This document shows positions 8,248-31,678 of a stretch of DNA of 31,678 nucleotides, one piece after another (position 1 is the first letter of the stretch; every line of letters starts with the position of its first letter). The notes under the pieces are model-generated. The model saw only the letters and a program-made list of their open reading frames with translations. It was not told the origin of the DNA and ran no database searches. Source of the stretch: a virus. The translations under genes and the position numbers were made by a program. The DNA lies in IMG/VR virus record IMGVR_UViG_3300027852_000126, positions 1 to 31,678 of that record; one strand, 5' to 3'.

Positions 8248-11200
8248 TATGCTTCGTCTCCACTAAGTGTGACGGTATCGCCACCAGATTGTTGATCACC
8301 AGATGTTAGAAGTAGGTCATTCCCAGAATTCATATCACCAGACAATTTTTCAGCGCTTCCTAAAGTAACAGGAAACCACCCATAATACAATGAAGATTTT
8401 GTATCTCCGGTTGTTCGTCTTGCATAAAGTCGTATATCAGCCACGCTGCCAACTATACCAGTGAAGTCGACAGCAACCGGACTAGTGACACTAGAGGCTG
8501 AAAGAGATACCTCTTCAACTCCATCAACCCATACTTCTAGATCGTAGGTTTCCACTTTATCTGGAGTTTCGTCAGCATCGAGTTCCAGAGAAATCTGACC
8601 TTCAGTTCTATTTGAATTTACCCAAGAGAGGTTCTGAGAACCAGCCGCTAGTTTCGGAAGTATACGATCACCACCGTATTGCAGGTTCCTTGGGCGCAAG
8701 GGTCTATCAGCAACGTCTTGCAGAACGTAGGAAGATTCTGTAACTTCAGATTCACCTTGTGCTGAACCACCAACTCTATCCAAAAGCTTGTAGTAGATTG
8801 TTCCATCTTCAAGCAATTCTGCCCCAATGGTCGAAAGAGACAGAAGAGAAACATCGAAGAAGTAAACAATAGTATCTAAGGCATGAGTGATAGGTACAGT
8901 ACCTAACAGTCCGCGATGAACATTGGTCAGAGTGAAGGTTCCATCCATATTATCAGTGACGCCCTCATATCCCATCCACTCACCGTCGACATAGAGAATA
9001 CCGGCTTCTCCACTTTGTATCTGAGCAACAGTGGCAGCAATGGGATCTGATCCGTCTGCGCCTATGATCGTATTAATTGTGAAACCAGTAGCATCAACAC
9101 CAGTTAGGAAACCCTCAGTGTTCTCATACATTGCAGACAACTTACCGCTGAGAGAATGTAAGACCTGCTGAGGCTCCCATATATCTAGAACTCCTGTTGT
9201 TGTCCCACTGACCATATCAAAGCTATCAGAAGCTGCCTTCGGACTAACTGTAAATGGAATGACTGCACCAAACCCATCGAAGACCGGATCCTCAAGATTT
9301 GATCCAAAGAAATATGGCATATCAACAATATCAGAAGTAACAATAGCTTCAGGTTCAGGACGATCATCAGACCAACCTGTATCCTCTGGGTCAGAGAATA
9401 CAACTGTACTGACAGCGAATATATCTTGGACAAGTTCAACAGATATTTTGTTATCATCAATCTGACCGAGATCCAAGTTCTGAACACGACAGACCAGTTC
9501 TGTTACCCCGTATTCTGGAATTGATACTTTTATCGGTGCGCCGAGTTCTAGATCAAAGGCATTGCGATTCATTGTGCATGTGAGACGAAGAAGTGGAAAC
9601 GATAATACAGAAAGCTCTCTAGCTGCCAGTTGATTAGCAATCGTCTTATCATAGCAAAAAGGAAATGAGATCTCACTTGTGCTTTTACCGACCATATTAG
9701 CAACTGCCATGTTCTGGGCTTCAGCGACTCTAGTTCCTTCTTTTTCTCGTGATGCAAATGAAACCTTAACAACCGACTTCAAATCTTGCCAGCTTGTTTT
9801 TGTGAAAGAAGTAACTTCTATGATATCATCTTCATCATAGATTGGTAAGGTTCCTACAGTGTAGTCATCGCGAATCAATTTAAGTTCAATCTCTCCGACA
9901 GAGTTTTGGCTAAGAACACCGTCAATTTGTCTTAGAACCTCCTGGAATATCTTTTTACCAGTTTGAGAAGAAGTGACTTTAATAGAGCAACCATGACCTT
10001 CAGCTATCAGAGTTACACCGGCATCGTAGAAAGATTGAAAATTAAGATTAGCTGTTTCTAGACCAAGTCCAGACCAACCATCGACCGCCATATGGTACAA
10101 AGCTCCAGCTGGGTTGATGTCTGGGTGATCAAGAGCAATATGCCCAAGGAATGGTAGATTGAGATAGTTGGAATACTTCCCGACAAGAAATTCTGTCTTC
10201 CTCAAGGCAGGTGTTTCACCAATCCATTGATTTGGCATAACTATGTGACAGACACCATTGTATGCAGGAACCAGTCCTACACCAATTGAGGATTCCAGAT
10301 TAGGATCAACGTCTTGATCGAACTTACCAGCGTAGAAAGTAAAGTCACCGACATGACCACCACCACTTTTCTTACCTCCATACAACTTTGGTTCGTTAAT
10401 GTCAGAAGAGACCGTATCTATTACTTCTCCGAATCCTTTAATTGTGTATGTTTGCGAGTTAACGGTGATAATAGTAAATAACGGAAGAGTTGGTGAAAGC
10501 TGTGCGGCAACAGATAAATATCTGGCTCCTGGAGCCAGTGTATAGTTGACTTTCATTACCTCATTTATAGTATCACCATTTTCTGTATCCTGAACTGCTA
10601 AAGCCCCTTCTACGGGGTTCACAGGACTTCCGAAAGGATCTCCACTAACTGAATGCATTATTGCGCTAAGAGTGAAGCTACCGCTCGATGGACCACCTCC
10701 AGCTAACGGTGTTTTCTCAGTATCAAAATCAATAATAGCCTCTAGTTGTAAATCACCAGCGGAGGCAAGATTATCATATTGTTCTGCTGTCAATCCAGTG
10801 ACTGCTAGAATATCAGTTTCTTCGTAGACCAGAGACGAGGAACTAATGCTCATAGTGAGATCTTCATGATAAGTCTGCACCTGTTCTGGGTACAGGGTAT
10901 CTCCTTCAGCTACCACTTCATCATCAATATAAATTTTCTTAAGCTGAACGTTAGGACCGAGACAAATACCAAGATCTATAGAAAGATAATAATTATACCC
11001 AACCGTAACTTTCGTGGAACTGAACAATCCGGTCTTCATTTTTTCTTTTATAGGCTTTGATCTAAAATCTCCATACCAGAGAGTGTTAGGACCGGCGATA
11101 CGCGCACAACCCAAGAGGAGGGCTACCGGAGCATCTTCGGTAGCTTGTGGGAAGTTATTAGGATCCAGATCTTCAGGACGTGCGTTCTCAAACTCTGGCT

Positions 11201-11264
11201 TCGGGGCCAGCAGTGCCGTTATGAGGAATGATACGGCGAACAGGGCTAATGTGAACCAAATCAT
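8247..11264 (-). CDS. Large tail tip / central fibre protein (host-specificity type)
   Basis: A 1005-residue protein. A hydrophobic N-terminal helix (residues 1-21, MIWFTLALFAVSFLITALLA) precedes a beta-rich chain with many Asp/Gly turns. The middle (EDDIIEVTSFTKTSWQDLKS, then GAPIKVSIPEYG) matches the 'putative phage tail protein' family found in siphophage tips, equivalent in position to lambda gpJ and the large tip protein of gene transfer agents. A Fn3-like segment lies near residues 880-970 (LSWVNSNRTEGQISLELDAD). It would close the tail tip and link hub to receptor-binding protein. It overlaps both neighbours by one or two bases (TGATG upstream, TAATG downstream). Confidence 0.85.
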   Translation of the reverse strand: MIWFTLALFAVSFLITALLAPKPEFENARPEDLDPNNFPQATEDAPVALLLGCARIAGPNTLWYGDFRSKPIKEKMKTGLFSSTKVTVGYNYYLSIDLGICLGPNVQLKKIYIDDEVVAEGDTLYPEQVQTYHEDLTMSISSSSLVYEETDILAVTGLTAEQYDNLASAGDLQLEAIIDFDTEKTPLAGGGPSSGSFTLSAIMHSVSGDPFGSPVNPVEGALAVQDTENGDTINEVMKVNYTLAPGARYLSVAAQLSPTLPLFTIITVNSQTYTIKGFGEVIDTVSSDINEPKLYGGKKSGGGHVGDFTFYAGKFDQDVDPNLESSIGVGLVPAYNGVCHIVMPNQWIGETPALRKTEFLVGKYSNYLNLPFLGHIALDHPDINPAGALYHMAVDGWSGLGLETANLNFQSFYDAGVTLIAEGHGCSIKVTSSQTGKKIFQEVLRQIDGVLSQNSVGEIELKLIRDDYTVGTLPIYDEDDIIEVTSFTKTSWQDLKSVVKVSFASREKEGTRVAEAQNMAVANMVGKSTSEISFPFCYDKTIANQLAARELSVLSFPLLRLTCTMNRNAFDLELGAPIKVSIPEYGVTELVCRVQNLDLGQIDDNKISVELVQDIFAVSTVVFSDPEDTGWSDDRPEPEAIVTSDIVDMPYFFGSNLEDPVFDGFGAVIPFTVSPKAASDSFDMVSGTTTGVLDIWEPQQVLHSLSGKLSAMYENTEGFLTGVDATGFTINTIIGADGSDPIAATVAQIQSGEAGILYVDGEWMGYEGVTDNMDGTFTLTNVHRGLLGTVPITHALDTIVYFFDVSLLSLSTIGAELLEDGTIYYKLLDRVGGSAQGESEVTESSYVLQDVADRPLRPRNLQYGGDRILPKLAAGSQNLSWVNSNRTEGQISLELDADETPDKVETYDLEVWVDGVEEVSLSASSVTSPVAVDFTGIVGSVADIRLYARRTTGDTKSSLYYGWFPVTLGSAEKLSGDMNSGNDLLLTSGDQQSGGDTVTLSGDEA

Positions 11265-12067
11265 CAGAGACGGCTCTTGAATGGATTTTTATCAGGCACT
11301 AAAGGAAATCCTCCAAAATTACGCGCGTTATTGAACTTAGTGATACAATCACCGGCTAGGGCGTGATTACAGCCTTGGCGAATAGTGATAGTGTCAGTAG
11401 CTACTAATCCTGAAAATGGAGATGATACAGTAAATAGAGTTCCGACATTGTCGATTATCATGCGACGCTCCCCACCAGAAACAAACACCATCTCACCAGC
11501 GTTACAGGCGTCGTCTGCGAAAGGTGAGCTTGCAAGAGTAATCATATTCTCAGAAATACTGCTTACCACCACATTACTTTCAAAGGTGGTTGGATCAACT
11601 TGACATAAGTCATCATATAGAATATTGTTACATGGAGCCTGATATTTTACCCCTGGAAGCGGACCGTTAAGTGCGAATGATAGTAGAGATGGAACTTTTA
11701 GCTTGGCTATGTTTTTCTCAACTGACCAAGATAAAACTTCTCCTTGCCATTGTAAAAGAGTTGCATTTACATCATTAGGATGAGCTCGTCGTAGCTCTAA
11801 GATCAAAGAAGGTGGCGCGGTGCTGTAGACGTATTCCTGAACCATTGGATTGTTGAATGGTAAGGAGATAACCATAGACAAGTCTTCATCCTGAGTACCT
11901 CGTTCCAACTTCTCGCGCTGAATAGTAGCAATTTCGTAGGTTCCTTCGGAGTTGGTGATCTCTTCGTTCCAAGACGTGAAACGATATGTATTATAGTTTC
12001 CGGTGAACTTGAACAGTTCTATTGGAGCGCCACTGGCCGAACTCTTCTCTGTTGTTTCGAACGTCAT
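11264..12067 (-). CDS. Tail hub protein, BR0599/DUF2163-like, with a conserved Cys set
   Basis: A 267-residue baseplate hub-type protein. The C-terminal third carries the BR0599 signature: CNNILYDDLC (Cys146, Cys155), then GCNHALAGDC (Cys233, Cys241) and NARNFGGFPLVP. A further Cys is at 188. Lambda gpL, in the same tail position, binds an iron-sulphur cluster through four Cys, so these residues may do the same. The N-terminal part is beta-rich (IELFKFTGNYNTYRFTSW). The gene lies between the distal tail protein and the long tip protein, as in gene transfer agents and many siphophages. Confidence 0.85.
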   Translation of the reverse strand: MTFETTEKSSASGAPIELFKFTGNYNTYRFTSWNEEITNSEGTYEIATIQREKLERGTQDEDLSMVISLPFNNPMVQEYVYSTAPPSLILELRRAHPNDVNATLLQWQGEVLSWSVEKNIAKLKVPSLLSFALNGPLPGVKYQAPCNNILYDDLCQVDPTTFESNVVVSSISENMITLASSPFADDACNAGEMVFVSGGERRMIIDNVGTLFTVSSPFSGLVATDTITIRQGCNHALAGDCITKFNNARNFGGFPLVPDKNPFKSRL

Positions 12068-12070
12068 ACA

Positions 12071-13246
12071 TCACCCGTTATCTGTTGTAATGATATCGAA
12101 AGAGACCTCACTCTCAAGAGGGTAATGCCGCCAAGAAATCTGATCAGACATCCTTGCTTTTAGAAGGTAGCTGATGCGGGTCACATTAGCCACTTTTGGG
12201 TCTACTGGCAAGGCCGGAGAAAAGGTGACTATTACAGTACCTCCTCCGTCCACAGAATTAGTGATGGTATGAGAACTTTTAGTTCCGTCGGTGTATAGAA
12301 TTTCAAAGTGAGTATAAGCAGTGAATGCGTGGAATAGTTCATCGGAATAGGTTTCATTGATAACCATAGTCGTACCACCTTGAGACAAGGCTGTGTCAAG
12401 GGTCATGTCTGCTAATTGAGATGATATCAAGAAAGGCTTCCATGAACCACGGCACCAATCCATCAAGACGGTCCAGTAATCATAGTCTGCTTCATTACCA
12501 TAACCGCGCTCAACTCTGAACTTGCGCGTACCAGAGATATTGGCTCGCAGGTATCTTGAGGAGATAGTTCTCAAGCCAGTCTTGTTATCATCAACTTCAC
12601 GAGGAAAAGTATAGTTCTCATCCACACCAGCTTGGAAAGTTCTCTCCAGAATAGGTAAGCTATCCAATGTTGTCAGGGTCACAGCGTTATTGGTACGAAT
12701 TACATCGTTCTCTATCCAACTACTCACTTGGGCAGATACTGAACCTGCCATAGCATCCCATCGGAAACCTTGTCCGTTAGCCAATAAGCCAGTGATACCT
12801 TTGATTGTGAAGAAGTCTGTTGTGATGTCAATGCCCAAGGGAGCAGACAGGTTAGCACCATCTGCATCCATAGTTGTGACGACACCTTCTATGGCAACTC
12901 TGGTGTAGGGATTGAAGAAAACAATACGACCACCGTCTGAAATTTGTGCTCGCACAGGATCAAAGAATACTTTGGTTGCACCGCTTGAGGCGAGAGCAGT
13001 AACTCTCGCTGCGAATGGCCAAACAGGGACAGTCGAAGGTAACATTAGATCACGTGCAATAAGTTCAACAAAGGTATTGCGTTCAGTCTGATCTATTCCA
13101 GCCCAAGAGAGGGTCATAGTTGTTCTAGGAGTTGGACGGAGAGACAGTCTGCTCTCTGTACCATTCTTCGTTGACATTATATCAGTTAACCAATTCCAAG
13201 TCTCTCTGACTGGTGTCTCTGGAAATAGATTTAAGATATTGGTCAT
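12071..13246 (-). CDS. Distal tail (Dit-like) protein
   Basis: A 391-residue, beta-rich virion protein right after the tape measure gene, the usual place of the distal tail protein that caps the tube and attaches the tip. The N-terminus (MTNILNLFPETPVRETWNWL) and RPTPRTTMTLSW are of a kind met in tail proteins of aquatic siphophages. A second part with FRVERGYGNEADYDYW precedes a C-terminal Ig-like stretch. The start ATG 13246 overlaps the tape measure stop as TAATG. The Dit role is mostly from gene order. An exact family was not recognised. Confidence 0.7.
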   Translation of the reverse strand: MTNILNLFPETPVRETWNWLTDIMSTKNGTESRLSLRPTPRTTMTLSWAGIDQTERNTFVELIARDLMLPSTVPVWPFAARVTALASSGATKVFFDPVRAQISDGGRIVFFNPYTRVAIEGVVTTMDADGANLSAPLGIDITTDFFTIKGITGLLANGQGFRWDAMAGSVSAQVSSWIENDVIRTNNAVTLTTLDSLPILERTFQAGVDENYTFPREVDDNKTGLRTISSRYLRANISGTRKFRVERGYGNEADYDYWTVLMDWCRGSWKPFLISSQLADMTLDTALSQGGTTMVINETYSDELFHAFTAYTHFEILYTDGTKSSHTITNSVDGGGTVIVTFSPALPVDPKVANVTRISYLLKARMSDQISWRHYPLESEVSFDIITTDNG

Positions 13247-25274: not shown

Positions 25275-25389
25275 AGAGAATGAAGGCACCGAGCAGGAAA
25301 CACCCACCGCCTAGCATGATCGTATAAATAGGATGAGAGATCCAGGCTGAATAGAGCCAGTCTTTGAAACCATTCCAAAGAGTTGTCAT
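25273..25389 (-). CDS. 38-aa single-pass membrane protein coupled to the portal gene
   Basis: ATG 25389 overlaps the portal stop as ATGA, with AAGGA 6 nt upstream, which is strong support for a real gene despite its size. The product begins MTTLWNGFKDWLYSAW and has one hydrophobic helix (about 19-38, HPIYTIMLGGGCFLLGAFIL). Small membrane proteins between portal and scaffold genes are unusual. It may anchor early head assembly at the membrane or act in superinfection or lysis control. Function unknown. Confidence 0.7.
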   Translation of the reverse strand: MTTLWNGFKDWLYSAWISHPIYTIMLGGGCFLLGAFIL

Positions 25390-26900
25390 GTTGTTTCCTT
25401 CTTCGCTTTGTTACGAGCAGAAATGTCGTCGTCAGTATTATCGCCGTTACCGTTCTGATCAGCACCTGCTCTGTCTGCCGTTTCAGATTTCTTGAACGGG
25501 AATTCTTCAGTGTCCTCTGAAGAAGCTGCGGCCTGCTCTTCTTCAAAAGTCATCATTGTCATACGGCGACGGAAAGCGAGATCATGCATAGACTTAGCTG
25601 AGATCGGGAAGCCCAAAGAGCGAGCAGTAGCAATCTCAACCATAGTTTGCCCTGTGAGTGGCATCTCTCCGAACTCTTTGTTAGGCTTGACTCTCACTTC
25701 GTCTGGATTTTCTCCCATCCATTCAGCGCATACCTTCAAGACCATTTCGAGACCGGCAGCACCAGTCTCTACGATTTGATTCATGTCTGCAGTGCGAGCA
25801 GCAACACGGATGCGGAGACTATCACCGCTCTCACGTTCTCTGCTGGTACTGTCAAGGGTCTGCGCCCCCATGCTGCCAGCTTGACTCTCTAGGCTCTGCA
25901 GGGCCTCACGTTGCTCACTGAGACCTTTGCCTCCAACACCTATGTACTTAGCGTCAGCTCCGAGAGGCAGATCCAGTCGGGCACCAGCGCCGATGCGAAT
26001 AGTATCTGTTTCGTCAAAGTTTCCACCGCTGGTCACCAATGTATCTTGACCCTGCATGAACAGGTTCTGTCGATAATCTGCATCAGCTCGGTAGATGGTC
26101 ATACAAAGATTAGCTAAATTAAGGATTGGAGGATCATCAACGTCTGATGTTAAATCAGCAGCATTGATAATCACGAGAGGAAGTTTGTTCAACGTGGTCC
26201 CGCGCCAACTAGGCGCTTTCATCATACCAGCAATATACTGACCGTCCTCAAACACACCTTGTTTATAGATGCCGACGTCTTGGTTTACGTCATCTTTACC
26301 AATGGTCAGAACACGATACTTCTCATCTTCATCCCAATTGAAATTATCTTTACGGACCTGTTCTGTTTCTTCCAGAACGACCATGTTAAGGACTTGTGGT
26401 ACAAGCTCCTCAACTTGACCATCATCCCAATTGATAACTCGCTCGGAAATATAAGTTGTGAGATAAGGTAAGTCTTTTCCTGGAGCAGGATTGGTCGGCA
26501 TGTCTGCCATAACAGCTAGGCGACCTGTGGTAAGTTGTTCTGTGTTGATACGACGCAGCAAATCAGGAAGCGATTCACCCTTACTGGAGCGGATACCTTC
26601 CATCGATTTTGGTAGCTTAATCTCAGGAGGCTGACTGTGCATCATGCCGATTGCTGTCTGCACTGCCTCTCGCACAAAGTTCGGGAATCGAGCTCTTGTC
26701 TTATAAGCAAGGTAGGCTCTAGAACCAACAGACTCTACGTTAACACCAGCTCCATCTAAAATCTGGCTTGACGTGTACGGGAGATAAGTTGCGTTCTTGC
26801 TCTTAACTTTACGCTCGCCTTTGTAGGCGTCGCGCATAAGGGTCCAGTCAACGGAGACTTCTCCATATTGTGGATGTTTAGATGAGAGTGAATTTGTCAT
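25386..26900 (-). CDS. Portal protein (DUF4055-like)
   Basis: About 504 residues from ATG 26900. Two in-frame starts are possible: TTG 26936, 12 codons earlier, sits in a small hairpin, and neither has a clear ribosome site. The N-terminus (KHPQYGEVSVDWTLMRDAYK, then YLPYTSS), FVREAVQTAIGMMHSQPP and the following DLLRRINTEQLTTGR and LVIINAADL segments fit the DUF4055 portal family. The C-terminus is acidic and disordered (NGDNTDDDISARNKAKKETT). Twelve copies would form the DNA channel at one capsid vertex, docking terminase and adaptor. It follows the large terminase gene. Confidence 0.88.
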   Translation of the reverse strand: MTNSLSSKHPQYGEVSVDWTLMRDAYKGERKVKSKNATYLPYTSSQILDGAGVNVESVGSRAYLAYKTRARFPNFVREAVQTAIGMMHSQPPEIKLPKSMEGIRSSKGESLPDLLRRINTEQLTTGRLAVMADMPTNPAPGKDLPYLTTYISERVINWDDGQVEELVPQVLNMVVLEETEQVRKDNFNWDEDEKYRVLTIGKDDVNQDVGIYKQGVFEDGQYIAGMMKAPSWRGTTLNKLPLVIINAADLTSDVDDPPILNLANLCMTIYRADADYRQNLFMQGQDTLVTSGGNFDETDTIRIGAGARLDLPLGADAKYIGVGGKGLSEQREALQSLESQAGSMGAQTLDSTSRERESGDSLRIRVAARTADMNQIVETGAAGLEMVLKVCAEWMGENPDEVRVKPNKEFGEMPLTGQTMVEIATARSLGFPISAKSMHDLAFRRRMTMMTFEEEQAAASSEDTEEFPFKKSETADRAGADQNGNGDNTDDDISARNKAKKETT

Positions 26901-26962
26901 GGAAGCGAGCGTACTGTAAAGACGCTTGTCTTGCAAGTCTTTTTTATCTCAGGTGATATTTA

Positions 26963-28480
26963 TTAATGCGTTCCGGTCGTAGTGCCGCTAGATCCTGTTT
27001 GACCAAGAGATCTAATGAAATAGCGCACTTCATCGGCGACGTGATCCTCGGCTTCGGTGTTCACATCATCCATATTCTTTTCATCTCTAGATAGAACTGG
27101 CAAAGTATCTATAAATGCCACACAATCTCTAAAAACAAATAAACCAGACTTCTCTCTCGGGAAAGTAGCTAATAAATTGCCATCTGAGTCCTTTTTCTCC
27201 TGTGGATGGGCGTTTTTCAGCTTTTCTCTCACTTGGGTCCATCCAGTAGCGCGTGATCCAGGTCTTTTATCGGCCGCTTGCCACTGAATTCCTGGATATT
27301 TATGATTATCGTCAAGTTTGACCTTGACTTTCATGTCCGTGGCAATGCAATTTCCGTTTTCAGCCGCAAATATCTGTGAATCAGCGACGCCTCCTTTGAC
27401 ACGACACCAATTCTCCCCGCTGGATCGCCATCCCCATTCCAATTCTCTCTGTACGATCCCTTCTGCGATCTCTGTCGCCAAAAGATTAAGTCCTTCATTC
27501 GCATTCTTTGTACACCCATACCATTCTCGAATACGGAACACATCTCCCCGAATGGTACTTCTCCAAGTTCCATCCCGTAACTGCACATCTTCTCCATTGC
27601 TGATCGCCCACCAGCCCACAGAGAAAGGTCTTGATGCACCCCAATCAAAACTCCTCGTGATCTTCCATCTATCCGGAATATCAAAGCGAGGAGTAACATT
27701 GTAACTCGGATTCCATACATCATCAAACATTCCTCCAGCGACGACGTTCCAGTTACCATCCAACCACGCCTTCTTTTCTGCTTCATTGCGAGCAGCAGCG
27801 GCGATCTTCTGTTTATAGTCCGGATCAGCCTCAAGAAGAGCTATATTTTCGTCAATGTGACTATGAATGCTTAGACGGCTCGGTTCGTTATAACCATCAT
27901 CATCAATTAGGTCATTACGAACAACCATATTCAGTGTATCTGGCTTGAACCTCTTTTTCACCCAATTGTGGCCGGGACCATACGGGTTGGTCGTAGCGCG
28001 ACACATACGCGGCATCCCCTTGGTGGAAGAACGACAGGTGGACATCATCCGCTTGTAGCCTTCATCATTGGCCCAGTTGCAGAGCTCCTCCCAGCCTATC
28101 CACGGATATTCGTGACCATGATAGTTATCATAGTCTGATGTCTTCGCAAATTGGCGCAGAAGAAGCTGCTCTCCAGTCGGCCAAGTCCACGTATGTTCGG
28201 AATGGTTGAACTTTGCCTCAGGCCAAATCTGTGGAATCCACTTCTTGGTCTTCGAAATAACATCGGTCAATTGTTTGTAGGTCTGGCGAAACAGAATTCC
28301 CTTCCACGATGCGTTATATCCCTTTCCAACATGCATACAGAACGACATCAATAGACTATCAGTCTTACCGCCACCACGGGTTCCCTCAAAGAGGACCTCG
28401 AAGACTGGTGTCGAAGCAAGGAAAGCTTCTTGGCTTCCAGGCATCGGCTTCCATATTACGTTCTTTGGGTATTGTCTCAT
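26963..28480 (-). CDS. Terminase large subunit (packaging ATPase/nuclease)
   Basis: A 505-residue protein. Start ATG 28480 overlaps the upstream stop as ATGA. A TTG start 12 codons earlier lies within the upstream gene and is less likely. The ATPase shows Walker A GTRGGGKTD (33-41), Walker B YPWIGWEEL (125-133) with catalytic Glu, and the coupling segment RATTNPYGPG (161-170). The RNase H-like nuclease shows SFDWG (Asp279), VADSQI (Asp367) and VADEVRYF (Asp483), the three acidic metal ligands. It pumps DNA into the procapsid through the portal and cuts the concatemer. No small terminase subunit was recognised nearby. Confidence 0.93.
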   Translation of the reverse strand: MRQYPKNVIWKPMPGSQEAFLASTPVFEVLFEGTRGGGKTDSLLMSFCMHVGKGYNASWKGILFRQTYKQLTDVISKTKKWIPQIWPEAKFNHSEHTWTWPTGEQLLLRQFAKTSDYDNYHGHEYPWIGWEELCNWANDEGYKRMMSTCRSSTKGMPRMCRATTNPYGPGHNWVKKRFKPDTLNMVVRNDLIDDDGYNEPSRLSIHSHIDENIALLEADPDYKQKIAAAARNEAEKKAWLDGNWNVVAGGMFDDVWNPSYNVTPRFDIPDRWKITRSFDWGASRPFSVGWWAISNGEDVQLRDGTWRSTIRGDVFRIREWYGCTKNANEGLNLLATEIAEGIVQRELEWGWRSSGENWCRVKGGVADSQIFAAENGNCIATDMKVKVKLDDNHKYPGIQWQAADKRPGSRATGWTQVREKLKNAHPQEKKDSDGNLLATFPREKSGLFVFRDCVAFIDTLPVLSRDEKNMDDVNTEAEDHVADEVRYFIRSLGQTGSSGTTTGTH

Positions 28481-28917
28481 GTGGGTACTGTTAGCCCAGG
28501 AAGGGTGCACTGGCAAGCCTCAAACTCTGGCGATTTGTCGTGTATCGCCATATAGTGCCAGTTGGGACAAAGATGCACTCCGGTTTTACCATTGTCTATA
28601 TAATGTTTGAGGAGTAAATCTTCATGATCGTGGTTCTCGGTAGTAGACTCTGGCATTTCCATGCGCAACGTCCTCGCCGGATTGTTGAAGTTACGAATCA
28701 ATCTTACTATAGTCTTTGGGCTTACGAGTAAAGCATTATCTTCTATGACAACTCTCTTTCCCTGAGGGATATCGTAATGATCTCTATGGAACCAGTGTCT
28801 CCCGAGGCCGACCTGCGCTCCCATTAGGTGAAGATTTCTAATAGAATACGGAAGGCAGACCAAATGACGACGCTGGTCTGTCACAAGCCATTGAATGGGT
28901 CGAGATAGTTTAATCAA
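28477..28917 (-). CDS. DUF4031-like protein with C-terminal Cys/His cluster
   Basis: Start chosen at TTG 28917, which has GGAG 7 nt upstream and overlaps the previous stop. An ATG at 28956 would overlap the neighbour by 47 nt. The 146-residue protein has an N-terminal region RRHLVCLPYSIRNLHLMGAQ with WFHRDHYDIP (16-51), as in DUF4031 proteins of phages and bacteria, whose function is unknown. The C-terminus carries CPNWHYMAIH and CQC (Cys117, 135, 137), a possible metal site. It is coupled to the terminase by an ATGA overlap. Confidence 0.65.
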   Translation of the reverse strand: MIKLSRPIQWLVTDQRRHLVCLPYSIRNLHLMGAQVGLGRHWFHRDHYDIPQGKRVVIEDNALLVSPKTIVRLIRNFNNPARTLRMEMPESTTENHDHEDLLLKHYIDNGKTGVHLCPNWHYMAIHDKSPEFEACQCTLPGLTVPT

Positions 28918-29218
28918 CGATAGTCTCCATGCAATGTGAACAGATGGCATCGCCATCTATAGTATGAAACATAGGTCCTTCATGAGGACACATGATCTGA
29001 CCATTTGTAAATCTGATGTCTTCGATATTGATCCAACGAACTGTCTTCTTTCTCTCAACATAATATGGCTGATATGAAGCTGTGGTCTCTACGTTGAAGT
29101 CCTTGTCTAACCCAAGGAGATGACAGCATCCGTAATCCGGATTTTGCGACAGGACGAGCCAGAAGCCAGTTCCTCTGCGTGAGAACATCTTCCCTACGAG
29201 GCTACGAATATCGACCAT
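28910..29218 (-). CDS. Small phage protein with a C-terminal zinc-ribbon-like motif
   Basis: Start chosen at ATG 29218 (GGAG 6 nt upstream) rather than ATG 29230. The product is 102 residues. The body is mixed beta and charged (FWLVLSQNPDYGCCHLLGLD). The C-terminus holds CPHEG then CSHC (CxH...CxxC), which could bind one zinc ion. It lies in the early accessory cluster upstream of the terminase. Function unknown. Binding of nucleic acid or a host protein is possible. Confidence 0.65.
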   Translation of the reverse strand: MVDIRSLVGKMFSRRGTGFWLVLSQNPDYGCCHLLGLDKDFNVETTASYQPYYVERKKTVRWINIEDIRFTNGQIMCPHEGPMFHTIDGDAICSHCMETIVD

Positions 29219-29372
29219 AATATTCTCCATCTACCTCAACAAGAACTTTATCACCAGCATAGAACGCAACATACCATTCCACGATATCAGCAACAGCGCT
29301 CGTCTTAGTGTAGATCTTCTTTTCTTTATGAATAGTTCTGTTCTTGAAGGTAATCCAGCAAAGCATATCCAT
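29202..29372 (-). CDS. Small phage protein, 56 aa
   Basis: The ORF runs from ATG 29372, directly after the stop of the preceding gene, to TAG 29202, overlapping the next gene start by 17 nt. The product (MDMLCWITFKNRTIHKEKKI and so on) has an aromatic-rich middle (DIVEWYVAFYAGDKVLVEVD). The tight packing and codon-like sequence support a real gene. No family recognised. Confidence 0.6.
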   Translation of the reverse strand: MDMLCWITFKNRTIHKEKKIYTKTSAVADIVEWYVAFYAGDKVLVEVDGEYYGRYS

Positions 29373-30607: not shown

Positions 30608-30750
30608 TTTCTTGGGATTATGAGGATTCTGGTCCGACTCCGGCTAGGCGGGGGCGCACGTAGCACACCACTGACCACACCCGTTGATGGGGTGGGGTGT
30701 GTGGCGGGGCAGCTAGGGCAAGGCTTGCGCAGCCCTGCCCTAGTATTGTT
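30608..30750. other. Gene-free junction between the phage unit and the GA/TC-poor end
   Basis: No gene is seen. It holds an imperfect GC-rich inverted repeat (CCACACCC near 30675 with GGGTGTGTGG near 30696) and a 13-bp hairpin with one mismatch at 30713-30743 (loop TGCGC), followed on the plus strand by TATTGTTTT, a weak terminator form. Composition changes sharply within it: after about 30720 GA and TC all but vanish. Confidence 0.5.
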
Positions 30751-31134
30751 TTACTTGCTAGGCGCAACCAGCCACGCTTGGTTAGGGTTACTGGCCCACG
30801 TTGGCATGTTATGTGCCGCCCAACCACCGCGTGGTGGTGCCACGCTGCTAGCCGCTGCGCCTGCCACTAGTGCTTGCTTGTACTGGGCCAGCGTAAAGCC
30901 TTTAGGGTGTTGCTTGGTTAGTGCTGTTGCCACCTGCTGCGCATACGCGCGATGTGTGCCGGAGATCACTGGTGGCATAATGCCAGCAACAAACAAGGGT
31001 GCTTGTGGTGCTGCTGCCTGTGCTGCCTTGCTGCCTGTTGCAGCCTTGGTAGTGGCAACAGTGCCCGCGCCTGTGGCGGCTGTTGCTGGTGCTGCTGTGC
31101 GTTTAGCTGTGGTTTGTGTTTTAGCGTTTGCCAT
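30751..31134 (-). CDS. Basic Ala/Thr/Lys-rich protein without acidic residues, 127 aa
   Basis: Start chosen at ATG 31134 (MANAKTQTTAKRTAAPATAA), with AAAGG 8 nt upstream. A longer frame begins with TTG and is unlikely. The N-terminal 45 residues are a low-complexity basic tail like those of DNA-condensing proteins. The C-terminal part (KGFTLAQYKQALVAGAAASS, PPRGGWAAHNMPTWASNPNQ) looks like a folded domain. There is no Asp or Glu, a direct result of the DNA lacking GA dinucleotides. It could bind DNA. No family is recognised. Confidence 0.6.
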   Translation of the reverse strand: MANAKTQTTAKRTAAPATAATGAGTVATTKAATGSKAAQAAAPQAPLFVAGIMPPVISGTHRAYAQQVATALTKQHPKGFTLAQYKQALVAGAAASSVAPPRGGWAAHNMPTWASNPNQAWLVAPSK

Positions 31135-31259
31135 TGTGGTAGCCTTTACGTTTGTGGCCCTTGCGTTATTGCTTGGCCATGTTTTGGTTATAGCCACACA
31201 ATGTGGCGGAAATAAGGCAAACAAAAAATAAATGCGCCTTAATTCTGCCTTAGTTGCCT

Positions 31260-31273
31260 ACTATAAGTATAGT
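31260..31273. promoter_or_regulatory. Palindromic -10-like element between divergent genes
   Basis: ACTATA-AG-TATAGT lies in the 166-nt gap between the leftward basic gene and the rightward small genes. It contains TATAAG/TATAGT boxes on the plus strand and a symmetric layout, so it may be a promoter core or an operator. TTAATT 17 nt upstream could be a weak -35. The rest of the gap is A/T-rich with no other signal. Confidence 0.35.
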
Positions 31274-31300
31274 ATACCAACCAACAAAAAGGCTTACACA

Positions 31301-31456
31301 ATGTTTAACCGTTTTTACAAAACCAAGGCACAGCCCCAGCCACTAGCGCCAAGCAAGGTAATTTGCAACCACACGGGCAACACCCTTTACACTGGCAGCT
31401 TTGCCATGTGTGCAGCCTACGTGCGGGCCTATGGCCTTTGCCATGTAGCGGGGTAA
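31301..31456 (+). CDS. Small protein, 51 aa, no acidic residues
   Basis: ATG 31301 is chosen over the upstream in-frame ATG at 31232, as it follows AAAAGG at a plausible distance and the promoter-like palindrome lies between them. The product (MFNRFYKTKAQPQPLAPSKV, then NTLYTGSFAMCAAYVRAYGL) has three Cys and no Asp or Glu. Its DNA has no GA or TC at all. It ends 4 nt before the next gene, so the two are probably co-transcribed. Function unknown. Confidence 0.55.
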   Translation: MFNRFYKTKAQPQPLAPSKVICNHTGNTLYTGSFAMCAAYVRAYGLCHVAG

Positions 31457-31460
31457 GGCA

Positions 31461-31604
31461 ATGCAAGGATACGTAGTTAGCTACCGAGACTGGGACGGAG
31501 AAATGAAAACCCGTATTAGTTACGGCAAAGACCCAACTAGTGCGATATTTGCGTTTTACGCCACCTTTGACGAGGGTGCACCAGTTGGTATGATAGTACT
31601 TTAA
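31461..31604 (+). CDS. Small protein, 47 aa, before an intrinsic terminator
   Basis: The product begins MQGYVVSYRDWDGEMKTRIS and ends FDEGAPVGMIVL, a regular mix of beta-like and acidic residues. ATG 31461 lies 4 nt after the preceding stop, with a weak GTAAGG ahead. The stop is followed within 10 nt by a strong terminator, which supports a real last gene. Unlike its neighbour it uses GA dinucleotides normally. No family recognised. Confidence 0.6.
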   Translation: MQGYVVSYRDWDGEMKTRISYGKDPTSAIFAFYATFDEGAPVGMIVL

Positions 31605-31639: not shown

Positions 31640-31678
31640 GCTGGAGAGACGTGAGGACCGAGAGAGAGAGACCGGGCG

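Follow-up and report, generated by a model that had tools for sequence, protein, structure and literature searches.

Phage genomes are known to avoid target words, and the first-step-transfer DNA of phage T5 lacks certain restriction sites, so that a target word is locally absent from one region of the genome. In phage P1, one step is controlled by the modification state (Dam methylation) of pac, a site near the packaging genes (cited in PMC6449724). Restriction resistance has been used to place the hypermodified thymidines of phages M6, ViI and phiW-14 in TG or TC, and the M6 kinase acts on TG (unpublished in that source); site specificity is otherwise given as unknown (PMC6449724).

The window analysed here, i.e., the whole 31,678-bp stretch of viral DNA, contains a segment nearly devoid of the dinucleotides GA and TC, and related phages harbour counterparts of this “GA/TC-free island”. 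P1 pac and the T5 first-step DNA are the nearest ideas, but a coding island devoid of the motif within a hypermodified genome is found in neither case. In P1 pac, which shares a local modification state near packaging genes, the modified motif is densely clustered, whereas here it is absent over 0.7–1.3 kb including a gene. The words missing in T5 are 6-bp sites of host enzymes, whereas here a dinucleotide is concerned that fixes amino-acid use, and the enzyme is likely the phage's own. A literature search, with many subscription papers outside its reach, brought up no account of an island of this kind.

The phages under study resemble the Mesyanzhinovviridae, with which they have many genes in common and whose TerL proteins are approximately 54–57% identical. 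Pseudomonas phage M6 (Yuavirus) of this family likewise codes for a TS-like enzyme, an HD protein, a polymerase, a primase and HMUDK_hel. Unlike the island phages, M6 has the kinase domain PF18748 and the amino acid transferase PF18724, and it lacks both the glycosyltransferase described below and a GA/TC-free island; a search for TG/CA islands in M6 and MW2 revealed just a weak minimum near terS. The Queuovirinae phages 9g and CAjan (7-deazaguanine DNA) are similar in that they use headful packaging, have partly modified genomes and possess terL 41–43% identical, but the first 50 kb of each contain no comparable island. An archaeosine-type (DpdA) modification of GA was considered and judged unlikely, given that the relatives of the window carry a TS/HMUDK_hel/glycosyltransferase cluster and that 9g and CAjan are without the island.

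A GA/TC-free island upstream of terL

Between positions 30720 and 31460 of the window, a direct count yields 4 GA and 2 TC, as the earlier note had reported, and its expectation of 46 each comes close to the 40 GA and 52 TC expected from the segment's own composition. The dinucleotide odds ratios are 0.10 for GA and 0.04 for TC, and in 10,000 composition-preserving shuffles of the segment GA and TC together averaged 91.9 with a minimum of 63, compared to the 6 observed. The depletion is real, but extends slightly beyond the 740 nucleotides originally assigned to it: the stretch 30687–31467 (781 bp) still contains 4 GA and 2 TC, and GA resumes at 31468. Outside the segment both words are used freely, as had been claimed, with 28–69 GA and 34–87 TC per 740 bp (leaving out one 740-bp interval that overlaps the depleted segment). 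Rfam and tRNA searches of the window gave no match, and neither did a comparison of the island DNA with phage isolates and plasmids.

The minus strand of the window reads island, terL, portal and tail genes. The terL gene (terminase large subunit; 26963–28516, minus strand) is the next landmark downstream of the island and is 54% identical to M6 terL and 82% to terL of the related genome G003, while the portal gene (25386–26936, minus strand) was assigned by comparison with relatives. The terS gene of this phage would fall past the end of the record. In relatives the common order is terS, island, small genes, terL, portal and tail genes, and the junction supposed to lie at 30.6–30.7 kb is natural, because this gene order is common to the window and the relatives. 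The term “end segment” fits the 31,678-bp record, but in relatives the island is interior to the genome.

A terminase profile search provided 80 viral loci, for which TerL identity to G003 was measured, and an island was scored wherever GA plus TC numbered 10 or fewer within 400 bp, against approximately 50–70 expected. Such islands occur in 24 of the 51 loci with a TerL identity of at least 63% (several others end before the island position) and in 1 of the 29 loci below 60% (L145); some of the 80 loci are near-copies, and therefore these counts do not represent independent samples. The island is always located upstream of terL, at a distance of about 0.5–6.8 kb, and between terS and terL wherever both genes are present, and GA/TC usage in the remainder of these genomes is normal. 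Maximal-scoring island segments span 425–1507 bp, some being ended by the contig end, and the typical length is about 0.7–1.3 kb. Extreme cases are L115 with 6 GA plus TC in 1300 bp, L080 with 2 in 1008 bp, G016 with 1 in 715 bp and G005 with 1 in 700 bp, including 616 bp with none at all; the G006 island comprises a GA/TC-free run of 593 bp. The GA/TC-poor stretch of L145 (1431–2414; TerL 54%) is situated upstream of terL, contains dense TATA/TATAC-type repeats and lacks the island gene. A CpG-poor 700-bp stretch in G013 (12009–12708, L067; 9 CG vs 57 expected) may be a composition effect, as GC is low there too.

In most of these genomes, GA/TC is densest in the interval from terS to the island (up to 36–44 per 150 bp compared to about 20–26), with peaks that often directly follow the 3' end of terS and recur immediately ahead of the island; G007 and the window are exceptions. 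Saturated tracts, in most genomes the densest or close to it, are located at 11188–11337 and 12283–12432 in G005, at 29148–29297 in G003 and in the terS-island intervals of G016, G018 and G023, where they abut terS and island and carry repeats such as TTTCGCCGAGTCCGTCCATCGGAATCTC. The window's record ends with 11 GA in 38 bp (31641–31678), which is probably the start of a saturated tract of the kind that relatives have between terS and island. Short repeats around AATGTTGCGC occur in the upstream island part of L115 (31–1330), G005 (11097–11178) and L007 (2936–3017), and possibly represent protein-binding sites.

The island gene and selection at the DNA level

On its minus strand, the island of the window contains a gene for a basic protein of 127 amino acids (30751–31134) without a single Asp or Glu. 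Homologs of this protein are encoded in viral contigs of other metagenomes, each with a GA/TC-poor island inside a normal genome. Applied to the 29 loci scoring above 34 for the island, an HMM search identified the homologous gene in 22, with no match in L115, L110, L108, L109, L145, L099 and L128; L115 has a 166-aa reading frame without Asp/Glu, the end of which resembles the island family by eye. Members of the family start with an Ala/Pro/Lys/Thr-rich portion and share a conserved end. The structural model comprises two main helices (mean pLDDT 63.5), with moderate confidence in the conserved end only, and showed no convincing match to solved structures. Searches with the protein gave no match in phage isolates or genome_contigs, and no homologs with normal Asp/Glu were found in glycosyltransferase-free relatives.

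The depletion starts about 90–510 bp before the island gene and stops about 40–360 bp past it. Directly 3' of the stop, a strong hairpin of varying sequence is present in 19 of the 19 island genes examined (z averages −3.9 and is below −2.5 in 95%; controls: −0.6 and 15%). In the window, this hairpin (30713–30743, minus strand; z −4.5) is formed by 13-bp arms at 30713–30725 and 30731–30743. Because a T run is mostly absent from the island-gene hairpins, the term “terminator” is a guess. Within the island, an intergenic stretch (31135–31300), presumed to be a promoter region, separates the gene from a divergent 51-aa reading frame (31301–31456, plus strand), which lies in the strict island and contains neither GA/TC nor Asp/Glu. 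GA occurs at a normal level in a 47-aa reading frame on the edge of the island (31461–31604, plus strand), which encodes 6 Asp/Glu.

Relative to expectation, the coding strands of 12 islands retain GA at 0.08 and TC at 0.18, and depletion of the two words on one strand means that the avoidance extends to both DNA strands, as a duplex-level cause would predict. Summed over 15 islands, all TC contexts are depleted, ranging from 0.09 (ATC) to 0.28 (TCC) of expectation. In the island of G018 (L157 1–883), ATC/GAT is absent over 883 bp (ATC 0 vs 36.6 expected), and CTC (13 vs 23.5) and GTC are merely halved; A/T-TC is hit hardest, in G021 more weakly. The G018 pattern hints at A/T-TC as the avoided motif and at a different enzyme preference.

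Codon usage in 12 island genes (1570 codons) was compared to that in other genes. A T precedes a C-starting codon in 8 of 370 cases versus 40.3% elsewhere, and a G precedes an A-starting codon in 13 of 442 cases versus 28.0%. Asp and Glu together account for 0.4% of residues instead of 12.8%, and TCN encodes 8 of 70 serines compared to 5989 of 8874. Gene flanks within the islands retain GA/TC at 0.16 of expectation. G003, G007 and G008 have homologs of the 51-aa frame that lie at the edge of the island, and these contain 5–11 GA/TC and 3–7 Asp/Glu. The codon boundaries, the synonymous codons, the non-coding flanks and the comparison with neighbouring genes establish that selection over the island acts on DNA and not on protein.

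Predicted modification genes of the island phages

The window's record contains no modification gene, the modification region being outside the record, and therefore the pathway of its phage has to be deduced from relatives. There, a TS-like enzyme, an HD protein, HMUDK_hel (PF18723) and a GT4-type glycosyltransferase are encoded side by side. The gene for the TS-like enzyme, about 50–52% identical to that of M6 and by homology a dUMP hydroxymethylase, is present in G002, G003, G005, G007, G008, G015, G016, G018 and G023. HMUDK_hel was found in G002, G003, G005, G015, G016, G018 and G023 (in G018 and G023 by profile only), and the G003 HD query gave no match in G023. A search of seven records, among them the window, did not detect the 5hmdU kinase PF18748, and the glycosyltransferase stands beside HMUDK_hel in place of the kinase; for these reasons, the pathway is said to work like the M6-type pathway rather than to be one. 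The gene gp054 of M6 (L029 41685–42248) is annotated “terminase small subunit”, but its protein matches the 5hmdU DNA kinase family PF18748, and the label is probably a misannotation; genes in Ab18 and PaMx11 are annotated similarly.

Among the genomes with a strong island, the nine whose modification module has been sequenced all carry a 5hmdU-type cluster with one particular glycosyltransferase. On a TerL tree of 21 genomes, a strong island is present in 9 of 9 genomes that have the glycosyltransferase and a sequenced terS-terL interval, and in 0 of 12 without the enzyme, the absence of which is less sure in MW2, Ab18 and PaMx11 (40–50 kb searched) and in the partial record G022. The glycosyltransferase/island label underwent at least 2 changes on this tree, which is few, since G023 is nested among genomes that have neither glycosyltransferase nor island. 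G021 has a weak island (44 GA plus TC vs 140 expected) and no homolog of the glycosyltransferase.

Other genes are located beside TS in G020 (TAGT-like glycosyltransferase and epimerase; modification-type genes at L162 4891–6655), G021 (radical SAM) and G025 (GT4-like, FkbM methyltransferase and radical SAM; modification-type genes at L174 17238–19958). Those of G020 and G025 possibly specify undescribed thymidine modifications.

Candidate explanations for the island

Among the proposals of the earlier note, a base-modification pressure on GA/TC is the best supported, albeit in a different sense, namely as a place exempt from the phage's own motif. Judging from word counts and gene content, we consider it fairly probable that the island is kept TC-free on both strands and is thus exempt from the phage's own TC-directed thymidine hypermodification. 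By gene homology, the TS-like enzyme and its partners would supply 5-hydroxymethyl-dU, which the polymerase would insert into DNA. Following replication, HMUDK_hel as a helical DNA-binding partner and the GT4-type glycosyltransferase would put a bulky group on the T of TC, a specificity deduced from the island itself and from the co-occurrence. Given TC-directed transfer, a stretch without TC on either strand would stay free of the bulky group, and such a bare stretch would be needed for a protein-DNA step that bulky groups would block. This reading draws on the recurrence of the island at one genomic position, the DNA-level selection, the link between the glycosyltransferase and strong islands, the 5hmdU-pathway genes next to that enzyme, the published placement of hypermodified T in TG or TC, the saturated tracts adjoining the island in most genomes and the hairpins 3' of the island genes. 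With slightly less assurance, we lean towards the view that the phages erase the dinucleotide of the modifying enzyme over about 0.7–1.3 kb, such that one gene or site remains bare and the rest hypermodified, at the cost of acidic residues. Points against a modification-based reading are that all island phages are metagenome contigs with the modification predicted from gene content, that the window's own record has no modification gene, that the weak island of G021 comes without a glycosyltransferase homolog, that the label changes on the tree are few, and that M6, a known TG/TC-modified relative, as well as 9g and CAjan do without such an island.

As to the step that would be blocked, our first, tentative choice is the transcription of one pioneer gene, which could be read on incoming modified DNA. 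This choice is ranked first because most islands span one small basic-protein gene together with its upstream DNA and 3' hairpin, and because a passive site offers no obvious reason to retain a gene there at this expense; the seven island loci without a match to the protein family argue against it. A close second, somewhat more doubtful, is a packaging-start (pac) region, where the small terminase or the first cut would need unmodified DNA and the saturated tracts would mark phage DNA. It owes this rank to the location of the island, which falls between terS and terL whenever a genome shows both genes, to the saturated tracts directly 3' of terS and to the short repeats that some islands carry in their upstream portion; moreover, headful packaging and circular permutation have been reported for the related family (PMC11946847). 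Yet, the repeats are not common to all islands, and a passive site would not need the one conserved gene that sacrifices its acidic residues in most of them.

Iteron-like repeats upstream in G005, G006 and L115 would suit a replication origin kept unmodified for initiator binding or opening, but repeats are absent in the window and several relatives, and the GC-skew extremes do not consistently coincide with the island, which renders an origin unlikely. Packaging start and origin are sub-choices of the exemption from modification, and the likelihoods given here do not add up to one. More improbable still is an attack of a host nuclease or restriction system on GA/TC in first-entering or exposed DNA, with no phage modification involved: the avoidance of target words in phage DNA and the restriction of the island to one locus, as for first-entering DNA, would be accounted for, but not the co-occurrence with one glycosyltransferase or the GA/TC-saturated tracts directly beside the island. 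A local mutation process, e.g., deamination at TC, which erodes words in the absence of selection, could yield local depletion on two strands; however, C-to-T changes in a TC context should reduce G+C, yet the segment is richer in it (53%) than the window (47%), GC and TG being the enriched words, and site replacements follow codon needs, leaving very little room for such a process. Finally, a contig chimeric at 30.6–30.7 kb or a foreign insert from a replicon with extreme bias, as the earlier note suggested and as an island reaching the end of the record might indicate, is refuted by synteny and has a next to negligible probability, since the genes on either side are co-linear in relatives from independent metagenomes, 40–66 kb contigs show the matching order with the island inside, and the island occupies one syntenic position in many otherwise normal phage genomes.

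Exemption from the phage's own modification is the reading we prefer. The island represents an unusually clean case, where a DNA-level constraint strips a whole amino-acid class, nearly all acidic residues, from a protein. It would furthermore allow the motif of the modifying enzyme to be read from sequence, which here would be TC, and perhaps A/T-TC in G018. If true, the exemption points to an infection or packaging step for which hypermodified DNA is unsuitable, and it would mean that sequence avoidance alone suffices to give a genome a positional epigenetic pattern.
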